Assembly (NCBI RefSeq): GCF_020520425.1
Contig: NC_079490.1
Location: 2,542,001 to 2,606,000 of the forward strand
DNA length: 64,000 bases
Direction of reading: 5' to 3'
Source: Spinacia oleracea
Lineage: Eukaryota > Streptophyta > Magnoliopsida > Caryophyllales > Amaranthaceae
The first letter of the stretch is position 1, and each line of letters begins with the position of its first letter. Positions 1 to 62,513 of the stretch are shown one piece after another. The notes beneath the pieces are model-generated. The model was not told the DNA's origin, made no database searches, and saw nothing but the letters and a program-made list of their open reading frames with translations. The translations under genes were made by a program, and so were the position numbers.

Positions 1-2943
1 CTGTGTTTTGTTGCTTTTGATGTGCTTTATGTTGGGGATACTAGTGTGATTCATCAAACTTTGAAAGAGAGGCATGAACTTCTTAGAAAGGTTGTGAGAC
101 CCGTTAATGGCCGATTGGTGATCTTGTTGCCAAATGATAGTAGTAGTAGTAGTAAAGATAATAGTCAGCGTGCTGGTGAGCGATGTTGGTCGATTGTGGC
201 TAACCACGTTGATGATGCCGAGAGGTTTTTTAAGGAGACTGTTGAGAATCGGGATGAAGGGGTTATTATTAAGGATCTTGGTTCGAAATGGGAACCGGGT
301 GATACGAGTAGGTCATGGCTCAAGGTGAAGCCTGATTATGGTAATGCAGGGGCCGATTTAGATGTTTTGATTATTGGAGGGTATTATGGTTCAGGTCGCC
401 GTGGAGGGGAGATTGGTCAGTTTTTGGTTGGTCTTGCAGAGAAGTCTAGTTCAGGTTCTTACCCTAGGAGGTTCGTGTCCTTTTGTAGGGTTGGTACAGG
501 GTTAACTGATGAGGAACTTGATGAATTAGTGACAAAACTGAAACCCTATTTTAGGAAGTACGAGTATCCAACGAAATCACCCCCGAGTTTTTACAAAGTT
601 ACTAATCACGCTAAAGAAAGACCAGATGTTTGGGTTGAGAGCCCTGAAAAGTCGGTGATTGTGTCAATTACGAGTGATATTCGTACCATAAGTTCTGAGG
701 TTTTTGCTGCACCGTACTGCTTGAGGTTTCCTCGGATTGATCGGGTGAGATATGATAAGCCTTGGCATGATTGTTTTGATGTTCAGTCTTTCCTTGAGTT
801 GGTAGTTATGAGTAATGGGACAACAAAAAGAAGAGGTGGTGCAGATAATAATCAAGGGTTGCCAAAACGTGCACGGACTTTGAAAAATGGAGGAGGAAAT
901 AAAAGACTCAATCTCACAGTTCCTTCTCATTTCACTCAGACTGATGTTTCTAAAGTGAAGGGGGAATCACAACTTTTTTCTGGTATTGTATTTCACTTTG
1001 TGAATGTGCCTTCTGAACATTCGTTGGATTCTCTCCACAAGTTGGTTGTTGAGAATGGTGGAACTTTTTCCATGAATTTGAACAACACGGTTACTCATTG
1101 TGTTGGGGCAGAGAGTCGAGGGATCAAGTATGAGGCGGTAAAGAGGCGTGGATGCGATGTTATCCACTACTCTTGGGTTTTCGATTGTTGCTCACAGAAG
1201 CAGCTCCTCACCTTGATGCCCAAACATTATGTCTTCCTTTCCGACTCTACAAGAAAGAAGTTACAAGAACAGATTGATGAATATTCAGACTCTTACTTTT
1301 GTGATCTTAGCGTTGTTGAGTTGAAACAGATCTTTTGCAACGTGATCAGATCAGAAGATGCAAAAATGGTTGACCACTACAAGAAAAAGTACTGTCCGCG
1401 TGAAAAATGGGGTGTTTTCCGTGGTTGCTGCATATATTTCCACCCATTTGCAAAATCCAATTCCGCTTCTTGGGACATCTTTTTGAAAATAGCTACACGG
1501 AGAATGAAAGTAGAAGTATCTTTAGGTGGTGGGGAAGTTTGTGACAACCCTTCTCAAGCAACCCATATAGTAGTCGTGTCAGTCCCGGGACATGAGCTTA
1601 AATTTGAAACCTTGTTACAGAGTTTCCCAGCGAACCAGCAATCTATCTTACGTAGGAGAAGACTTAATGTTGTGGGGTCACAGTGGTTGGAGGATTGCCT
1701 CAAAAAGGAGCAGAAATTGCCCGAAGTGGCATACAACCTGAAACCAACTACCTTCGAAGAATCTGCTTCTGATGAAGAGAAAGGTGGAAATGATGATGGT
1801 TATGAAGAAAAGCCGAGGAAGTCTGTTTCAAAAACCGTTCCCCGTATCACGGAACCCAAAAGAAAACGGGGAAGGGCTGTTGGAGCAAGCACTAGGAAAA
1901 GCAAAACAATTGTCAGCAAACCTCCGAGTACAAAAAGGGCCAGAGTTGGAAGCAGACCTGCTAAATTACATGAAATTTCCTTAGAAGACGACTTTAGTGA
2001 GCATGAAACTGATGAAATGGCAACGGTAAGCCCTAAACTTGAAATGCATGACTATGGTTATTAAAATCGCGATTCAAATCGTAGAATCTTACGATGATTC
2101 GATGATTCAAACATAATCTTACGATTCGATTTACGATTCTACAATTTTTTAGTGACTAGCGAAAACCTCCTAAATTTGAATCATGCTGAGAAAGTTATTA
2201 ATCGATAGATATTGTTAATTATTTCTTATTTAGCTATTAAACATCTATATAATTCAGTTATTAAGTTTTTCACCTATAATATAAGCACTTTCAATGAAAT
2301 TTGAGATTAATATCTTGATTATACTTGTTCGTATTCGATTCTAATAATCTCTTCCGATTCAAAGTAGAATCCCGATTTTGATAACCTTGTGCATGACCAT
2401 GTTTTTCAGGGCATATCCTTTGATGATAAGCATAACGAGCAGGATATTCTCGGGAAATCTGGTCTTGAAACTGGGAACTTTGGATTATGCTCAAAACACG
2501 GTTTATCAGAAAAGAACAAGGAGATTAAGGAAGAAATCAAGACTGATGAACTGGCAAAAGCAAACCATATCACCCAGAAGAATGTTTTTGATGATAAATC
2601 TGGTCTTGAAAAGAACGAAGAGAATGTGGAAGAACAGAAGCCTGACTTTAATGAGAAGAGGAAACACTGCTTTCAAAATTCTGGGTTTGTTACGTGCAGT
2701 AAACCGGATAAAGACAGAGATTACTCCTCTACTACAGGGAAATTGGATGTGATGGTTGATTCAGTTCATGGGTTATTGTTAGATTTGATCCCAGGTCTTG
2801 CTACTAATGTTGCTTCAGAAAACAAAGGTTTACCATCAACACAAACACAAGATGGATCTTTTGTAGAACCGGCGACAGGAGAACCAGTGAAGAAGAAGAA
2901 AGTTAGCTATAGGGAACTTGCAAAGCAGCTGCTTAAGGACTGA
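1..2943 (+). CDS. LIG4: DNA ligase IV (LIG4), 5'-truncated by window edge
   Basis: ATP-dependent DNA ligase of classical non-homologous end joining; it seals double-strand breaks in the nucleus with XRCC4. The frame is open from base 1, so the start lies outside the window. Model: exon 1-2025 and exon 2410-2943, both phase 0, giving 852 residues here; plant LIG4 is about 1200, so roughly the first 350 are missing. Seen in order: end of the adenylation domain with motif III (FDVLY, residues 6-10), motif IV (EGVIIK, about 93-98), motif V (SWLKVKPDY, about 112-120), OB fold (LDVLIIGGYYGSGRRGGEIG), BRCT 1 (about 325-410), the inter-BRCT stretch that binds XRCC4 in the family, and BRCT 2 (about 470-575). 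A basic, low-complexity plant-type tail follows and ends in RELAKQLLKD. The only intron in view is almost wholly a hAT MITE (see 2053-2389). Without splicing the frame stops at 2064. Identification is firm; the splice is inferred. Confidence 0.93.
2053..2389. mobile_element. hAT-type MITE inside LIG4 coding sequence
   Basis: A 337-bp non-autonomous element. Its ends are imperfect inverted repeats: TATGGTTATTAAAATCG at the left, and the right end reads CAAGGTTATCAAAATCG on the other strand. A perfect 8-bp target duplication TGCATGAC flanks it (2045-2052 and 2390-2397), the size expected for hAT. The interior is full of degenerate CGATT/AATCG repeats and has no ORF. Removing the element and one duplication leaves continuous LIG4 reading frame. 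Confidence 0.87.
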
Positions 2944-6800: not shown

Positions 6801-8702
6801 GAAAATTGGTGCCCGTGTCTCATAAGTGTGCTGGATAAATTTCAGTTCAGTAAAAGCTTAAAATTCAGCTAAAAAGAACAGAGATGTTAGCTTAATTTTA
6901 CTGAAAGTTTTATATATGATACTGTTATTTGGGCCCACTTTACACCCCTATAACGATTTTCTTTAACTCCTCCACCCTCCTCTCTTTATAACCATTGAAT
7001 TTTGTCAATTTTGTAAATTCCGTGTGAGGAAAAATTATGTGAATTCATGGAAGAGAATGAATCAGAGGAAGATAAGGGAGTTAAATACATGAAATTGTGG
7101 AAAAAGAAAAAATATCAGAAATGCTACCGTTATTGTGGCCCCCAACATAACTTTTTCATCTATTTTTCCATGGTGGTAAAAAACAAGTTTTAATATTTAT
7201 TTAAGTGGTAAAAATTAATTTTTCGAGGGAAAAAGTTACCCAAAACCCTGCGGACAGTGGCCAGATTGTTAGTAACCCCAGTAGCAGTCTCATTATGAAC
7301 AATGCAGATAGCCTTGATATTGTGTGCAGTATCAGCTGCTAGCTTTGATCCCATAGCTTCAAGGTCTGCACCTTTACCCCATTCACTCTCTATCACATCA
7401 ACATCAAAACCAAGTCTTTTCTGCTGATCAATCCACAGCAAACTGAATTGCCCTATCAGGAATGATATTACTTTGTCTCCTGGTGACAAAGTGTTTGTCA
7501 ATGCACTTTCCCATGCACCAGTACCTGCACAAATAGCCATGTAGGAGTTACTAATCTGATCAATCCATTGAAAAAAAAATATATCAATATCATGGTTAAA
7601 GCGTCAAACTAGTGTGTGGCACGGGCATTGACATTTATTCGGGTTTATTTTTTGTAAATATGTGGCCTAAATGGATGGTGTGGTAATCGAATTGGCGGTG
7701 GTAACGTGACACAAGATTAGCGACCGATCAACAAACTTCCGGATCTGAAACCCCACATCAGAAAATCAAAGTACAGCCTAATCTTTTTTTTTTCACCATT
7801 AGTTGATTAATTACTTAACCTCTTTTAATGTTTCCCCTCTTACTTATTATATTCTATTACTCCGGACTTTTTGTGTAATTTGAGGCTTAAGCTAGGAAAG
7901 TAATAGTTGTACATTTATAAATTAAGTAATCGTTCCTTTTTTTTCTTCTTTGCATTCACTTTTATTCAATTTATATGGAAAGGCACGACATATGTTGCAG
8001 TTGGTTAAAATGGTAGGAAGTGTAACTTTTAACAAATGAGGTTTGATGTCCGATCCTTGCTACAAGTGGCGCAATAAGTAGGGGTATACGTGACATGTAT
8101 ACGTTTTTAAGAACACCTTTTAATATATTACTCCGTAGTACAGATTTCAAAGATTCAAGCATTTCTCAGTTTGATCCATTTAGTACCTGTGGCTTATAAC
8201 ATGTCCTGTAAAACAGGGAAGTTTCCTACAGTAACCCATGTCACTATTTGCAGCTGTTGGGTTAGTGGTGTTGTTTTAGTCTCTCTGCTTAGCCATTACC
8301 CAGCCCAGCCCACGTAACTTCTGCCCGTCCCGACCCGGCCCTAACCCAGCCCATTGAACAGGTCTAGTACAAACTACAAAGACAGTAGGCAAACAAACAA
8401 ACCTCTGTACCTAATTAATCGCGCAAATAACACATACTTCATATTTTCTGAATAAACACTTCCTTCAGACTTCAGTCTACAGTATGACAGTAGTTACCTG
8501 TAGTTGGGATCATAAATGGGGTTCCAGTGGTAGTTTTGAAGATCTTCTTAACATCTTCAAGAAGTGATTTAGTGAGTGCTGGAATCGCAGGTGCGCGATA
8601 ATCCTCGTTGTTTCGATTCATGGCTCTGATGACTGGTTCTGGGATATTCACAGGTCCTGGAACAAACAGATGGTGCCTTCCTGGTCCATTCATGTAGTCC
8701 AT
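3826..8702 (-). CDS. AGT1: Serine:glyoxylate aminotransferase, peroxisomal (AGT1/SGAT)
   Basis: PLP-dependent class V aminotransferase of the photorespiratory cycle in leaf peroxisomes: serine + glyoxylate gives hydroxypyruvate + glycine (also alanine- and asparagine-glyoxylate activity in the family). Coding exons on the minus strand: 8702-8498, 7524-7240, 5925-5559, 4834-4624, 3963-3826. All borders are GT-AG with matching phases; the sum is 1206 nt, 401 aa, the same length as Arabidopsis AGT1. Seen: N-terminal GPGRHHLFVPGPVNIPEPVI; GTGAWESALTNTLSPGD; the LLLVDGVSSICALDFRMDEW block; and the PLP lysine in TGSQKALSLPTG (Lys201). The C-terminus ends SRI, a PTS1 signal. Introns 2 to 4 contain several MITEs and duplications. 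A leader intron is likely upstream (8751-9732). Assignment is very secure. Confidence 0.97.
4005..4540. mobile_element. hAT-type MITE in AGT1 intron 4
   Basis: Starts TAGAGCTAGCAAA and ends TTTGCTAGCTCTA, a near-perfect terminal inverted repeat. Flanking octamers GTATGAGT (3997-4004) and GCCTGAGT (4541-4548) agree at 6 of 8 positions. The interior has arrays of CCAACCC and GGGTTGG that can pair across the element. Subtracting it leaves a normal intron of about 116 bp, so splicing is probably unaffected. Confidence 0.75.
4920..5527. repeat. Cluster of three related MITEs in AGT1 intron 3
   Basis: Three adjacent inverted-repeat elements sharing an AAGGCT...GTTCTCTTCA-type end: about 4925-5095 (right end GTGAAGAGAACAAAGCCTTA), about 5190-5336 (AAGGCTTAATTTGTTCTTTTC to GAAAAGAACAAAGCCTTAG) and about 5330-5527 (CTTAGGGTCTATTCTCTTCATC to GATAAAGAGAATAGAGCGCCTTA). 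Another member is at 63425-63635. Interiors carry GGTCTGGTCTA-type repeats. Borders are approximate because target duplications are not clear. Confidence 0.6.
5921..6245. repeat. Tandem duplication at the AGT1 exon 3 splice acceptor
   Basis: A 168-bp unit is duplicated next to exon 3. The real acceptor (TTTCAG before base 5925) has a copy in the same context at 6094-6096. Both copies share the downstream AGAACCAGCATAAAG and ATAAGAACATTGAAC blocks and the AATTCAG tail. A third, partial copy without the acceptor lies at about 6750-6885. Confidence 0.8.
6288..6659. mobile_element. Mutator-type MITE in AGT1 intron 2
   Basis: About 372 bp with imperfect inverted ends of about 42 bp: AGTTCTTAAATGGACTTGGTCC on the left and, read from the right end, ATTCTTGCGTGGACCTGGTCC. 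The 9-mer TATAAACGA is duplicated at 6279-6287 and 6660-6668, fitting Mutator. It separates repeat copies 2 and 3 of the intron duplication. It resembles the element at 43925-44250. Confidence 0.72.
7240..7524 (-). other. AGT1: AGT1 coding exon 2
   Basis: Listed separately because it fixes the exon phasing. It enters by completing a split glycine codon (PTT-G-TGAWES) and leaves on the first base of the Asp codon finished by exon 3 (VRRVL-D-HYNHPALLL). Both joins reproduce conserved SGAT sequence. Confidence 0.93.
7985..8080 (+). repeat. SINE-like, tRNA-derived fragment in AGT1 intron 1
   Basis: Contains TTGGTTAAAATGGTAGGA, resembling a degenerate Pol III A box, and about 45 bp later GATGTCCGATCCTTGC, resembling a B box. 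No full tRNA cloverleaf can be drawn and no tail is clear, so this is at best a decayed SINE head. Confidence 0.3.
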
Positions 8703-39533: not shown

Positions 39534-42075
39534 GCAATTTGGATGGTGCAGGCGTGTGCACGTAGCTCTAGGTGCACCGGGATTAAAACGACCAATATTA
39601 AACACAAAACGCGCGTTTTCATTAAATTCCCAGGAAAAAGAACAATGCCCTTGAACAAAAGAACACCTCTGAACAAAAGAACATTAAAGGCTCTGTTCTT
39701 TTCAGTTATGTTTATCGCGTTTTTATTTGATTTTTGTTATTTTTGCGATATATATTCTTCTGGGTTTTATGTTTTGAATTCAAACTGTGAAGAGGAGAGA
39801 GAAAGTCTAGGTTTTCTAAAATGGGTTTTAGAGAGAGAAATTAATGAAAATCCCCAAAAATTCGTTGATTTTTCTGCTTCAACATCAAATTAAATTGATT
39901 CTTCTTCTTCAAATCTGAATTCTACAGCTGATAATCAGATTTTGGGAGGTAAATTTTCAATTTTGTAATAACAAATGGCATGTTTTGATGATTTTGATTT
40001 TGTAATAGTTGTGTTTTTGATGATTTTGACTATTTTGATTTTGTAATAATCGTGTTTTGATGAATTTGATGATTTTAATGAATCAAATTATGTAATAACA
40101 CGCTGATTTCGTTGAAATCGTTGATTTTGAAGATTTTGATTATGTAATTACGATTTTTTCCAGAAAAGAACAGTTTTACGTATTAAAAGAACATATGCTC
40201 GAATGAAAAGAACAGTTACATTATGCTCGTATTAAAAGAACAGTTTCATTATAGTAGAAAAATAGACCATTTGCGTTTCATAATTTGTTCTTTTGTTTTA
40301 TTGTGTTCTTCTTTTTTATTATTTTCAATATTATTTGCATTTCATAACTTGTTCTTTTTATTTTATTGTGTTATTTTTCTTGTTAAATTACTTTTTATTT
40401 ATCCTTTGTTATTTTGATTGCGTTCTTTTTCTTGTTTTTATACATATTAACCTATTATTTTTTCAGATATTATGAATAATGTGCTTGATAATGCATAACA
40501 GAATGATGAAAATGATGGTTCCGAATCATATGTTATTGTGGGACAAAGTACTTGACTTGTTCTTTTAGTCTCTATATTTGTTCTTTAAGACTTTTCATTT
40601 GTTCTTTTCATAATACTCTGTTAAAAGAACAAAATAAAAACACGTGCACGGTTCTCATTATGCACTCCTTTAACAATTTTTCTTTTCTCCTTCTCTGTTC
40701 TTCAATTCTTTGATTCTACTTCCTATTTGTTCATTTTCTATTTTTCAGCAACTATATATATAATAATTGTACTTATGAGTCATAACCATTAGTCATTTTA
40801 GAAATACATTTTAGAGAGAGAGAGAGAGAGAGGGGAGAGGATTTATATTCTCTCAACATAAGAGAGATTTTTCGAGAGAGAAAGAGTGAGATGGTAAATG
40901 AAAGAGTAAAAAAATACATTTTCTCCTTATTCTCTCTCTAAAATTCCTTCTGAATGTTTCTCGTTTGTTGAAAATGAGTGAATTAAGAAAAACACTAGTT
41001 CAATGTTGATGCTCCTGATAAATGTTGATAAGTGTTTAAGGTACGTTTCCTTGTTTTTTCATCTAATGTTCTTTTCGGATTGTTATGTTCTTTTTCACAA
41101 CTTTATTTTTACTGTGTCATCAACATAGTTTGTTCTTTTATATCAACGTACATAGATTGTTAAAAAAGAACATATAATGGTTTGAAAAGAACAAATAACA
41201 CTTAAAAAAGAACATAGTCTGATTCGTGGTAAAAGAACAAATATACTTTTTTTTTAAAATATAGATTTAGTTTTAAGTGCATCAAAAAATCGTCGTTTTG
41301 TCTTTTTAATTAGAACATAAAATCGTTTGAATAGAACAAATAACACTTAATAAAAGAACATAGATCTTATGTGTGGGATAAAAACAAAAATACATTTAAA
41401 TAAAAATATAGATCTAGTTTTAAGTGCATCAAAGTATCGTCGTTTTCGTCTTTTTAATTAGAACACTAATTGGTTTGATAAGAACAAATACAACTAATAA
41501 AAGAACATAGATTTGTTGTTCTTTTCGTCCCTTTCATTCTGTTCTTTTGTTTGATAAGGAAAAAGAAAATGATGTTCTTTTTTCATGTGTTCTGTTCTTT
41601 TTTCTTATTTTATTGTGGTTTTTTTTTTTTTGAGTTTTTGTTATTTTATTTTTCTTCTAATTTTGTTCTTTGTGTTTTGTAAAAAAGTTGTTGTTCTTTT
41701 TTATAATTATTTTGTGTTCTTTTTAATTTTTTTACAGTTTTTTAATATTTAATAATATTATCGATAATATGTATTTTTTTTTGTTTTTCTATTGCATTTT
41801 TCACACGATGTTCTTTTTGAAAAATAGTTGTTCTTTTTATAGTTATCAGGAGAGAGAATGTGTTATTTTTATTTTTGTACATTTTCTTTAGTTTTTTGAC
41901 ATTAGTGTTCTTTTCAGGTTTAGTTAATGTTCTTTTTGTTTACTCTAGTTCTTTCTGTTTAGTTTTTTATGTTCTTTTTCGTTTTTTTGTTTTTTGCGTT
42001 TTCTTTTAATGTTTTTGCGTTTTGGTGCAGGTGCACGTAGATCTACGTGCAGGTCCCTGCACCATCCACGCGTTG
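39534..42075. mobile_element. Mutator-type non-autonomous element, 2.5 kb
   Basis: Left end GCAATTTGGATGGTGCAGG; right end, reversed, CAACGCGTGGATGGTGCAGG. Both ends continue into GTGCACGTAG-type subterminal palindromes. A perfect 10-bp duplication CATATATACC flanks it (39524-39533, 42076-42085). The interior is very AT-rich and packed with the octamer GTTCTTTT and its complement AAAAGAAC (more than 30 by eye). No transposase ORF; the 144-aa and shorter ORFs are compositional. It lies 90 bp before the start codon of the Rossmann gene. Confidence 0.88.
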
Positions 42076-61124: not shown

Positions 61125-62513
61125 ATGGGACCAATGCTTCAAGATGATGGATCATCAGTAACTTCATCATCACCCCTTGAGTTTTTCTCTAGAATGTCAC
61201 CAAACATAGGTTCTTCAAATCCATGGCTTAGAGAACTGAAACCTGAAGAAAGGGGTCTCTATTTAATCCATTTATTACTAGCTTGTGCAAACCATGTCTC
61301 AAATGGTAGCTTAGATAATGCTAACTTAGCCCTTGAACAAATCTCTCATTTAGCCTCACCTGATGGTGATACAATGCAGAGAATTGCTTCTTATTTTGCT
61401 GAATCCCTTTCTGAAAGAGTCCTAAAATCATGGCCTGGTATATATAGATCCCTTAATTTCACCAAAATGCCTGTTATTTCAGAGGAAATTCTTGCTAGAA
61501 AACTCTATTTTGAGCTTTTTCCATTCCTTAAATTAGCTTATGTGGTAACAAATCAGTCAATTTTAGAAGCTATGGATGGTGAAAAGATGGTTCATATAAT
61601 TGATCTGAATGCATCTGAACCTGCACAATGGATTGCCCTTATTCAGGCTTTAAGTGTACGGCCTGAAGGACCGCCTCATTTGAGGATTACTGGTGTTCAT
61701 CAACAGAAAGAGGTGTTAGATCAATTAGCTCATAGGTTAACTGATGAAGCTGAAAAGTTGGATTTGCCATTTCAGTTTAATCCTGTAGTTTGTAGTAAGT
61801 TAGAGAATCTTGATGTCGAAAAGCTTCGTGTTAAAACCGGGGAAGCGTTAGCTATTAGCTCGGTTCTTCAACTTCATACCCTTTTAGCCTCCTCTGATGA
61901 TGAAACAACCATGAAGAAAGCTTCATCTTTAGGGTTGTTTGTTAATCATGTAAATGGGGGAAATAATGCTAATGCTAATAGGCGGCGTAGTAGCCCGAGT
62001 AATGATTCATCATCATCATCACCAACCTCGATCAATGCTTCAGCAAAGATGGATGGATTTCTTGCTTCTTTGTGGGGTTTATCCCCGAAAATCATGGTGA
62101 TAACCGAGCAAGACTCGAACCATAATGGGTCGGGTCTAATGGAGAGATTGTCCGAGGCATTGTACTACTATGCTGCATTGTTTGATTGCTTAGAGAGTTC
62201 TTTACCTAGGGTATCAATCGAGAGAAGGAAAGTAGAGAAGATGCTTCTAGGTGAAGAGATCAAGAATATTATCGCGTGTGAAGGAGGAGAAAGAAGGGAA
62301 AGACACGAGAAGCTCGAGAAATGGATCCAAAGGCTCGATATGGGTGGGTTTGGGTGCGTTCCGTTTAGCTATATGGGTATGTTGCAGGCACGGCGTTTGT
62401 TGCAAGGGTGTAGTTGTGATGGTTATAGGATTAAGGAAGAGAATGGTTGTGTTGTTATCTGTTGGCAAGATCGTCCCCTATTTTCGGTATCAGCATGGAG
62501 ATGTAGGAGATGA
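61125..62513 (+). CDS. SCL3: GRAS transcriptional regulator SCARECROW-LIKE 3 (SCL3)
   Basis: Nuclear GRAS-family co-regulator. In Arabidopsis SCL3 promotes gibberellin responses by opposing DELLA proteins and acts with SHR/SCR in the root endodermis. Single exon, 462 aa. Seen: short N-terminus without a DELLA motif (1-35); leucine heptad I from LYLIHLLLACANHVSNGSL (45-63) to about 100; VHIID core as MVHIIDLN (155-162); RPEGPPHLRITGVH; leucine heptad II (EVLDQLAHRLTDEAEKLDLPF); PFYRE-like LRVKTGEALAISSVLQLH; a Ser/Asn-rich insertion (about 280-307); and the SAW end with GCVPFSYMGMLQARRLLQG and VSAWRCRR. The first ATG is chosen because MGPMLQDDG aligns with the MVAMFQEDN start of Arabidopsis SCL3. 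No damage seen. Confidence 0.97.
   Translation: MGPMLQDDGSSVTSSSPLEFFSRMSPNIGSSNPWLRELKPEERGLYLIHLLLACANHVSNGSLDNANLALEQISHLASPDGDTMQRIASYFAESLSERVLKSWPGIYRSLNFTKMPVISEEILARKLYFELFPFLKLAYVVTNQSILEAMDGEKMVHIIDLNASEPAQWIALIQALSVRPEGPPHLRITGVHQQKEVLDQLAHRLTDEAEKLDLPFQFNPVVCSKLENLDVEKLRVKTGEALAISSVLQLHTLLASSDDETTMKKASSLGLFVNHVNGGNNANANRRRSSPSNDSSSSSPTSINASAKMDGFLASLWGLSPKIMVITEQDSNHNGSGLMERLSEALYYYAALFDCLESSLPRVSIERRKVEKMLLGEEIKNIIACEGGERRERHEKLEKWIQRLDMGGFGCVPFSYMGMLQARRLLQGCSCDGYRIKEENGCVVICWQDRPLFSVSAWRCRR

Follow-up and report, generated by a model that had tools for sequence, protein, structure and literature searches.

The Ds elements of maize, which are hAT transposons, are reportedly spliced from mRNA when they lie in exons, with a de novo intron described in sh2 (work attributed to Wessler, 1987, and Giroux, 1994), and the catalase gene CatA of rice is said to possess a transposon-derived intron formed by a MITE-like element (attributed to Iwamoto, 1998). 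More generally, the insertion of transposons is an accepted way for genes to gain introns, among others through latent sites that become active close to the element, and Table 1 of the source holds 35 such events, drawn from Oryza, Drosophila, Oikopleura and Zea (PMC3443670). The relevant section of another paper presents transposon insertion as the only model of intron gain with in vivo support in plants, and states that no proposed species-fixed intron gain had been tied to an element (PMC4256211). Introners, according to the portion of a 2022 survey drawn upon, were reported from no land plants (PMC9860276). Human retrogenes, in turn, are described in the pertinent part of a further study as regaining introns, RPS3AP5 having done so by the insertion of outside sequence (PMC3565874). 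Against this backdrop, the source of new plant introns is an open question, and we describe here a natural candidate for intron birth in the DNA ligase IV gene (LIG4) of Spinacia oleracea, in which the element, its target duplication and both splice sites are all still readable. We regard this locus as a well-preserved candidate of a known, rarely documented kind, the transposon-derived intron; a literature search, with most subscription journals lying outside its coverage, found no publication on it.

The window, i.e., the whole stretch of 64,000 nucleotides that was analysed, opens inside LIG4, the ATG of which lies 1002 nt upstream of it (G000:C4:2540999). The coding segments in the window are:

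1..2025, + strand: upstream exon of LIG4, in-window part, with the ligase core, the C-terminal ligase domain, BRCT and the DNA ligase IV motif; without intron
2410..2943, + strand: downstream exon of LIG4, 177 codons and a stop, intact

The best solved-structure match of the first 675 in-window codons is DNA ligase 4 (7lsy, E 3.1e-57). In the window, PF11411 (the DNA ligase IV motif) and BRCT score over the Pfam cut-off, and the ligase N-terminal domain PF04675 is present once the part upstream of the window is included; the gene thus combines a ligase core, BRCT domains and the DNA ligase IV motif, the features by which DNA ligase IV is recognised. Its first 1009 codons (G000:C4:2540999 to window 2025, i.e., positions 6999-8000 of locus L009 followed by window 1-2025) are without introns, and the frame runs uninterrupted from the ATG to the element over 1018 host codons. 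Elsewhere in the window, 61125-62513 on the + strand is a single open frame of 462 codons whose product, judged by eye, resembles an SCL3-type GRAS protein; the lowest G+C among 2-kb steps is at 40001-42000 (0.249 vs 0.295-0.425 elsewhere); and Rfam returned no match in the window.

Across the genome searched (894,210,420 bases in 242 contigs), LIG4 appears to be a single-copy gene that, apart from the element, is without coding introns. Its residues 1-905 match the genome once, in one piece, and its C-terminal 294 residues give significant matches only at the LIG4 locus (two of 14, the other 12 with E of at least 3); likewise, the LIG4-specific Pfam motif PF11411 has a single match. The ligase core, PF01068, provides a better control than the search with residues 1-905, because the latter scored only one candidate and is weak for split genes: the eight matches of PF01068 comprise LIG4, in one piece, and seven exon-sized pieces at two other loci, both of which are nearest to DNA ligase 1 (one fragment tested per locus). 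Neither an exon-split parent of LIG4 nor an empty-site paralogue was found in the spinach genome by the searches with the LIG4 protein, PF11411 and PF01068; three scans of a general and a viral contig collection for plant LIG4 sequence likewise turned up no relative. In Arabidopsis, insertions described for LIG4 lie in its 1st and 6th exons, in its 9th intron and in its 18th intron/19th exon (PMC12231562). The spinach gene thus has one coding intron at most, as against at least 18 introns in Arabidopsis, some of them possibly in untranslated parts; the absence of ancestral introns looked for in a retrogene is seen here as a single coding frame set against a gene with a 19th exon, a comparison confined to the coding part. 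The simplest reading is that spinach LIG4 arose as a retrogene or underwent conversion by a cDNA of its own, and we consider it likely that its introns were lost via an RNA intermediate, whether the gene moved or was converted where it stood. As for the scars of retroposition, the 1.2 kb upstream and the 1.1 kb downstream of the gene revealed neither a clear poly(A) remnant nor clear flanking repeats (longest common word 12 nt, longest A run 7), and an old copy may lose such scars.

The one interruption of this otherwise continuous frame is a small transposon with its target-site duplication:

2045..2052, + strand: left target-site duplication TGCATGAC, exact 8 bp
2053..2389, no strand assigned: hAT-type MITE of 337 bp with relatives on contigs C1-C6 and with ends that match as inverted repeats at 19 of 23 positions
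2390..2397, + strand: right target-site duplication TGCATGAC, exact 8 bp

The two copies of TGCATGAC have 0 mismatches, and 19 of the first 23 positions of the element's termini agree as inverted repeats. The element is small, has short inverted repeats at its termini, occurs in multiple copies and lacks coding capacity (no ORF of at least 50 aa lies wholly within it); it is thus a MITE, which we take to belong to the hAT superfamily from the duplication length and the end sequence. A genome search with the full element gave at least 45 matches, namely the LIG4 copy, 39 other places and five shorter pieces, a lower bound since 40 of 226 candidates were scored. Thirty copies with loci (L030-L059), the LIG4 copy included, were examined; they are 324-383 bp long and 15 of them, again counting that in LIG4, are flanked by a perfect 8-bp duplication lying no more than 3 bases from the nominal ends. 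Because the family has at least 39 other places and half of the examined copies have perfect duplications, the insertion signature at LIG4 is more than chance.

The same copies help in dating the insertion. Set against the majority of the other 29 copies, the one in LIG4 has a different base at 26 of 333 sites (Kimura 0.082, the median of the others being 0.078), or at 25 of 308 outside CpG; it shows four indel events to these 26 substitutions, and a FastTree tree gives it a terminal branch of 0.095. At plant rates of between 6.5e-9 and 1.5e-8 substitutions per site and year, the insertion would be roughly 5 to 13 million years old, an estimate biased by the choice of copies for their similarity to that in LIG4. 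Two near-identical pairs among the 30 make the insertion events fewer than the copies. One pair, L034 and L037 (G000:C3:4782960-4783283 and C3:21402026-21402348), has the duplication TTCACAAA in common, agrees in its flanking frame and adjoins a Sigma-70 region 3 domain; the probable cause is a duplication, later than the insertion, of part of a sigma-factor-like gene. The other, L046 and L047 (G000:C2:93716227-93716589 and C2:93694327-93694689), lies 21.9 kb apart and is probably a tandem or segmental duplication that likewise followed insertion. When frames across the empty site were computed for all 30 copies and nine of them inspected, the longest besides LIG4 were those at L058 (529 aa) and L053 (273 aa), both of which look, by eye, like retrotransposon coding sequence; the frame at L041 has a domain match below the cut-off only.

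What surrounds the element can be laid out as follows:

2026..2409, + strand: predicted intron, GTAAGC...TTTTTCAG, 384 nt, phase 0, 71% AT
2026..2044, + strand: former exon left of the duplication, carrying the donor GTAAGC
2398..2409, + strand: former exon right of the duplication, carrying the acceptor TTTTTCAG

The original prediction held that this 384-bp intron is the MITE at 2053-2389 plus one 8-bp duplicate plus 39 bp, and that the 39 bases, 13 codons, would read straight through in the LIG4 frame. Both parts are borne out: 384 nt resolve into 337, 8 and 39, the element and one duplicate making up 345 of the 384, and with these removed the remaining 39 nt translate as VSPKLEMHDHVFQ and keep the LIG4 frame on both sides, giving a protein of 1199 aa. 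The predicted intron hence consists mostly of element and duplication, and its empty site is readable as exon, which is how a transposon-derived intron is recognised, though an open stretch of this size with a length divisible by 3 would arise by chance in roughly 1 of 6 cases anyway. The proposed insertion into an exon has strong support in the combination of the exact duplication, the in-frame 39-nt empty site, the want of any other coding intron and the want of an exon-split second copy. Hence, we hold that the MITE very probably inserted into a LIG4 coding exon, and the 13 codons along with both splice sites would predate it. A history in which the element entered a pre-existing intron that later shrank around it would account for a donor and an acceptor that are unusually good for exon sequence and resemble real intron ends. 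However, without the element such an intron would have 39 nt, a length below the usual plant minimum for introns; those 39 nt continue the LIG4 frame without a stop; and the shrinkage must have spared both sides of the duplication, which is intact. Moreover, because LIG4 has no other coding intron, a lone survivor at this very place would be a special case, and we consider this history very unlikely.

With insertion into an exon as the preferred reading, the next consideration is the quality of the sites themselves. The donor GTAAGC at 2026 forms a U1 duplex of -8.2 kcal/mol, the 2nd of the 235 GTs from ATG to stop when these are ordered by U1 pairing energy. The acceptor TTTTTCAG at 2409 is the 3rd of the 276 AGs over the same span and the best between 2080 and 2600, on a simple pyrimidine score of our own making. 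The donor begins 19 nt before the left duplication and the acceptor ends 12 nt after the right one, so that neither is supplied by the element or its duplication; indeed, the best GT inside the element is no better than -3.2 kcal/mol. The exon end before the donor is ACG, not AG. The predicted intron is richer in AT than the coding sequence (71% vs 58%), and a motif search yields a candidate branch point:

2378..2382, + strand: TTGAT within the element's right inverted repeat, a candidate branch point whose A (2381) precedes the acceptor by 28 nt

The yUnAy motif behind this search has four matches in 2301-2409.

Frame restoration was rejected as evidence by itself, since it is achieved by 69 of the 486 GT-AG pairs at least 70 nt apart that can be formed from GTs at 1900-2389 and AGs at 2060-2699. 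The same abundance is what speaks for the element being spliced mainly with other sites, so that it would be partly translated or isoforms would be mixed: with the donor at 2026, 18 AGs up to 2699, that at 2409 included, restore the frame, and the one at 2367 would keep 14 residues, partly element-coded, in a product of 1200 aa. Yet 2409 is the top-scoring AG between 2080 and 2600 (1.10), against 0.88 at 2577, the best listed of the frame-restoring alternatives, and 0.54 at 2367; the AGs at 2233 and 2257 within the element come close, at 1.04, and do not restore the frame with this donor. Main use of such other sites is improbable in our estimate, and from the ranks of the two sites, splicing between 2026 and 2409 is likely to yield the main product.

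How often an insertion would find itself so well flanked can be gauged from the element-free exon, in which 38 of 3400 insertion points fall within an in-phase pair that good at a reach of 60 nt, every one of them inside the 39-mer; at a reach of 100 nt the count is 44. Among 100 codon-shuffled versions, the mean share of such points is 0.14%, with 86 versions having none and the highest reaching 2.1%, as against 1.1% for the real LIG4. Under laxer splice cut-offs, the real share is 3.1%, vs a shuffle mean of 0.92% and a highest value of 5.6%; single codon shuffles can therefore exceed the share of the real gene. Either the element landed by chance between the best latent pair or the sites improved afterwards, and each of these would favour splicing.

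A different fate for the gene would follow from retention of the element in the mRNA:

2062..2064, + strand: TAA that would end the LIG4 frame on retention of the intron

As foreseen in the original prediction, the unspliced upstream frame stops at 2064, and the three predicted lengths are accordingly 1199 aa before insertion, 1186 aa when spliced and 1021 aa when retained, the last consisting of 1018 host codons and three from the element. An element that truncates LIG4 in this manner, leaving the downstream frame as a relic, would be compatible with the ligase and BRCT domains that were found, all of which precede the element, such that a shortened enzyme might work, and with the tail, which has no Pfam domain above the cut-off. 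Standing against truncation are the ranks of the flanking splice sites, 2nd of 235 and 3rd of 276, and the 531 nt downstream of the element, which are intact. Had the tail been lost to use at insertion, the joint chance of these 531 nt staying open would be 0.07 to 0.0001 at 4 to 8.2% substitutions under neutral drift; at 2% divergence it would be 0.11 to 0.27, where an intact tail is unsurprising. In this test stops were simulated and frameshifts computed, on the assumption of 0.1 or 0.2 indels for each substitution and of a share of 0.8 among these that shift the frame. Truncation is hence disfavoured, because an intact stretch of this length is improbable under neutral drift unless the insertion is young, and we judge it unlikely. 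Within the tail, an exact 16-nt repeat (2455-2470 and 2596-2611) lies in a weakly repeated stretch, hinting at an internal duplication in the C-terminus. The C-terminal end, KKKKVSYRELAKQL, presumably resembles that of Arabidopsis LIG4, a likeness to which we give no weight.

Taken together, we propose the following history for the locus. LIG4 would have lost its coding introns as a retrogene or through conversion by its own cDNA. A 337-bp hAT MITE would then have entered the resulting long exon several million years ago, duplicating 8 bp. Before this event, GTAAGC and TTTTTCAG would have been spaced 39 nt apart, too close for splicing, 39 bp being below the usual minimum length of a plant intron; the insertion would have spread these splice-like sites to 384 nt and added an AT-rich body and a candidate branch point. 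The spliceosome may then remove the element together with the 13 original codons, in phase 0, to give a protein of 1186 instead of 1199 aa, with the C-terminal 177 residues retained. That latent splice sites of the host became usable in this fashion through an insertion into an exon, with the element and 13 codons being removed, is in our judgement a likely account of the whole. The fuller sequence of events, in which the only LIG4 of the genome lost its coding introns via an RNA intermediate and then regained one when the MITE pushed latent exonic sites past the minimum intron length, we hold to be slightly better than an even proposition. The rule it suggests is that latent exonic sites come to bound an intron when an insertion widens the distance between them sufficiently. 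If true, the locus would offer a long-established, possibly fixed, plant intron with a readable transposon origin, gained in the ligase of a repair pathway that heals broken DNA ends.

This proposal finds its likenesses and contrasts in several described systems. Splicing of maize Ds from exons is a direct precedent: there, too, a hAT element in an exon is reportedly spliced out, partly via host sites, as is predicted for LIG4. The Ds cases, however, are mutant or revertant alleles, whereas the LIG4 element sits in a reference genome and is about 8% off the majority of its relatives. Rice CatA is likewise said to be a plant gene with a small element as intron; unlike it, LIG4 is without any other coding intron and has its splice sites in the host exon, outside the target duplication. 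The Introners, in the portion of the survey used (PMC9860276), are similarly non-autonomous DNA transposons with a duplication and inverted repeats that act as introns. They make many introns, whereas at LIG4 the splice sites lie in neither the element nor the duplication, and none of the 29 other copies of its family stood out as an intron in the frames across their empty sites. RPS3AP5, as presented in the relevant part of its source (PMC3565874), is comparable as a retrogene regaining an intron through insertion; it differs in being human and in having an insert without assignment to a transposon family, as against a hAT-type MITE in what is seemingly the only copy of LIG4. Finally, exitrons and intronization, as treated in the part of the literature drawn upon (PMC4484396), share with this locus the in-frame removal of coding sequence via host exonic sites; unlike exitrons, the exonic stretch in LIG4 would have been too short for splicing until the element lengthened it.
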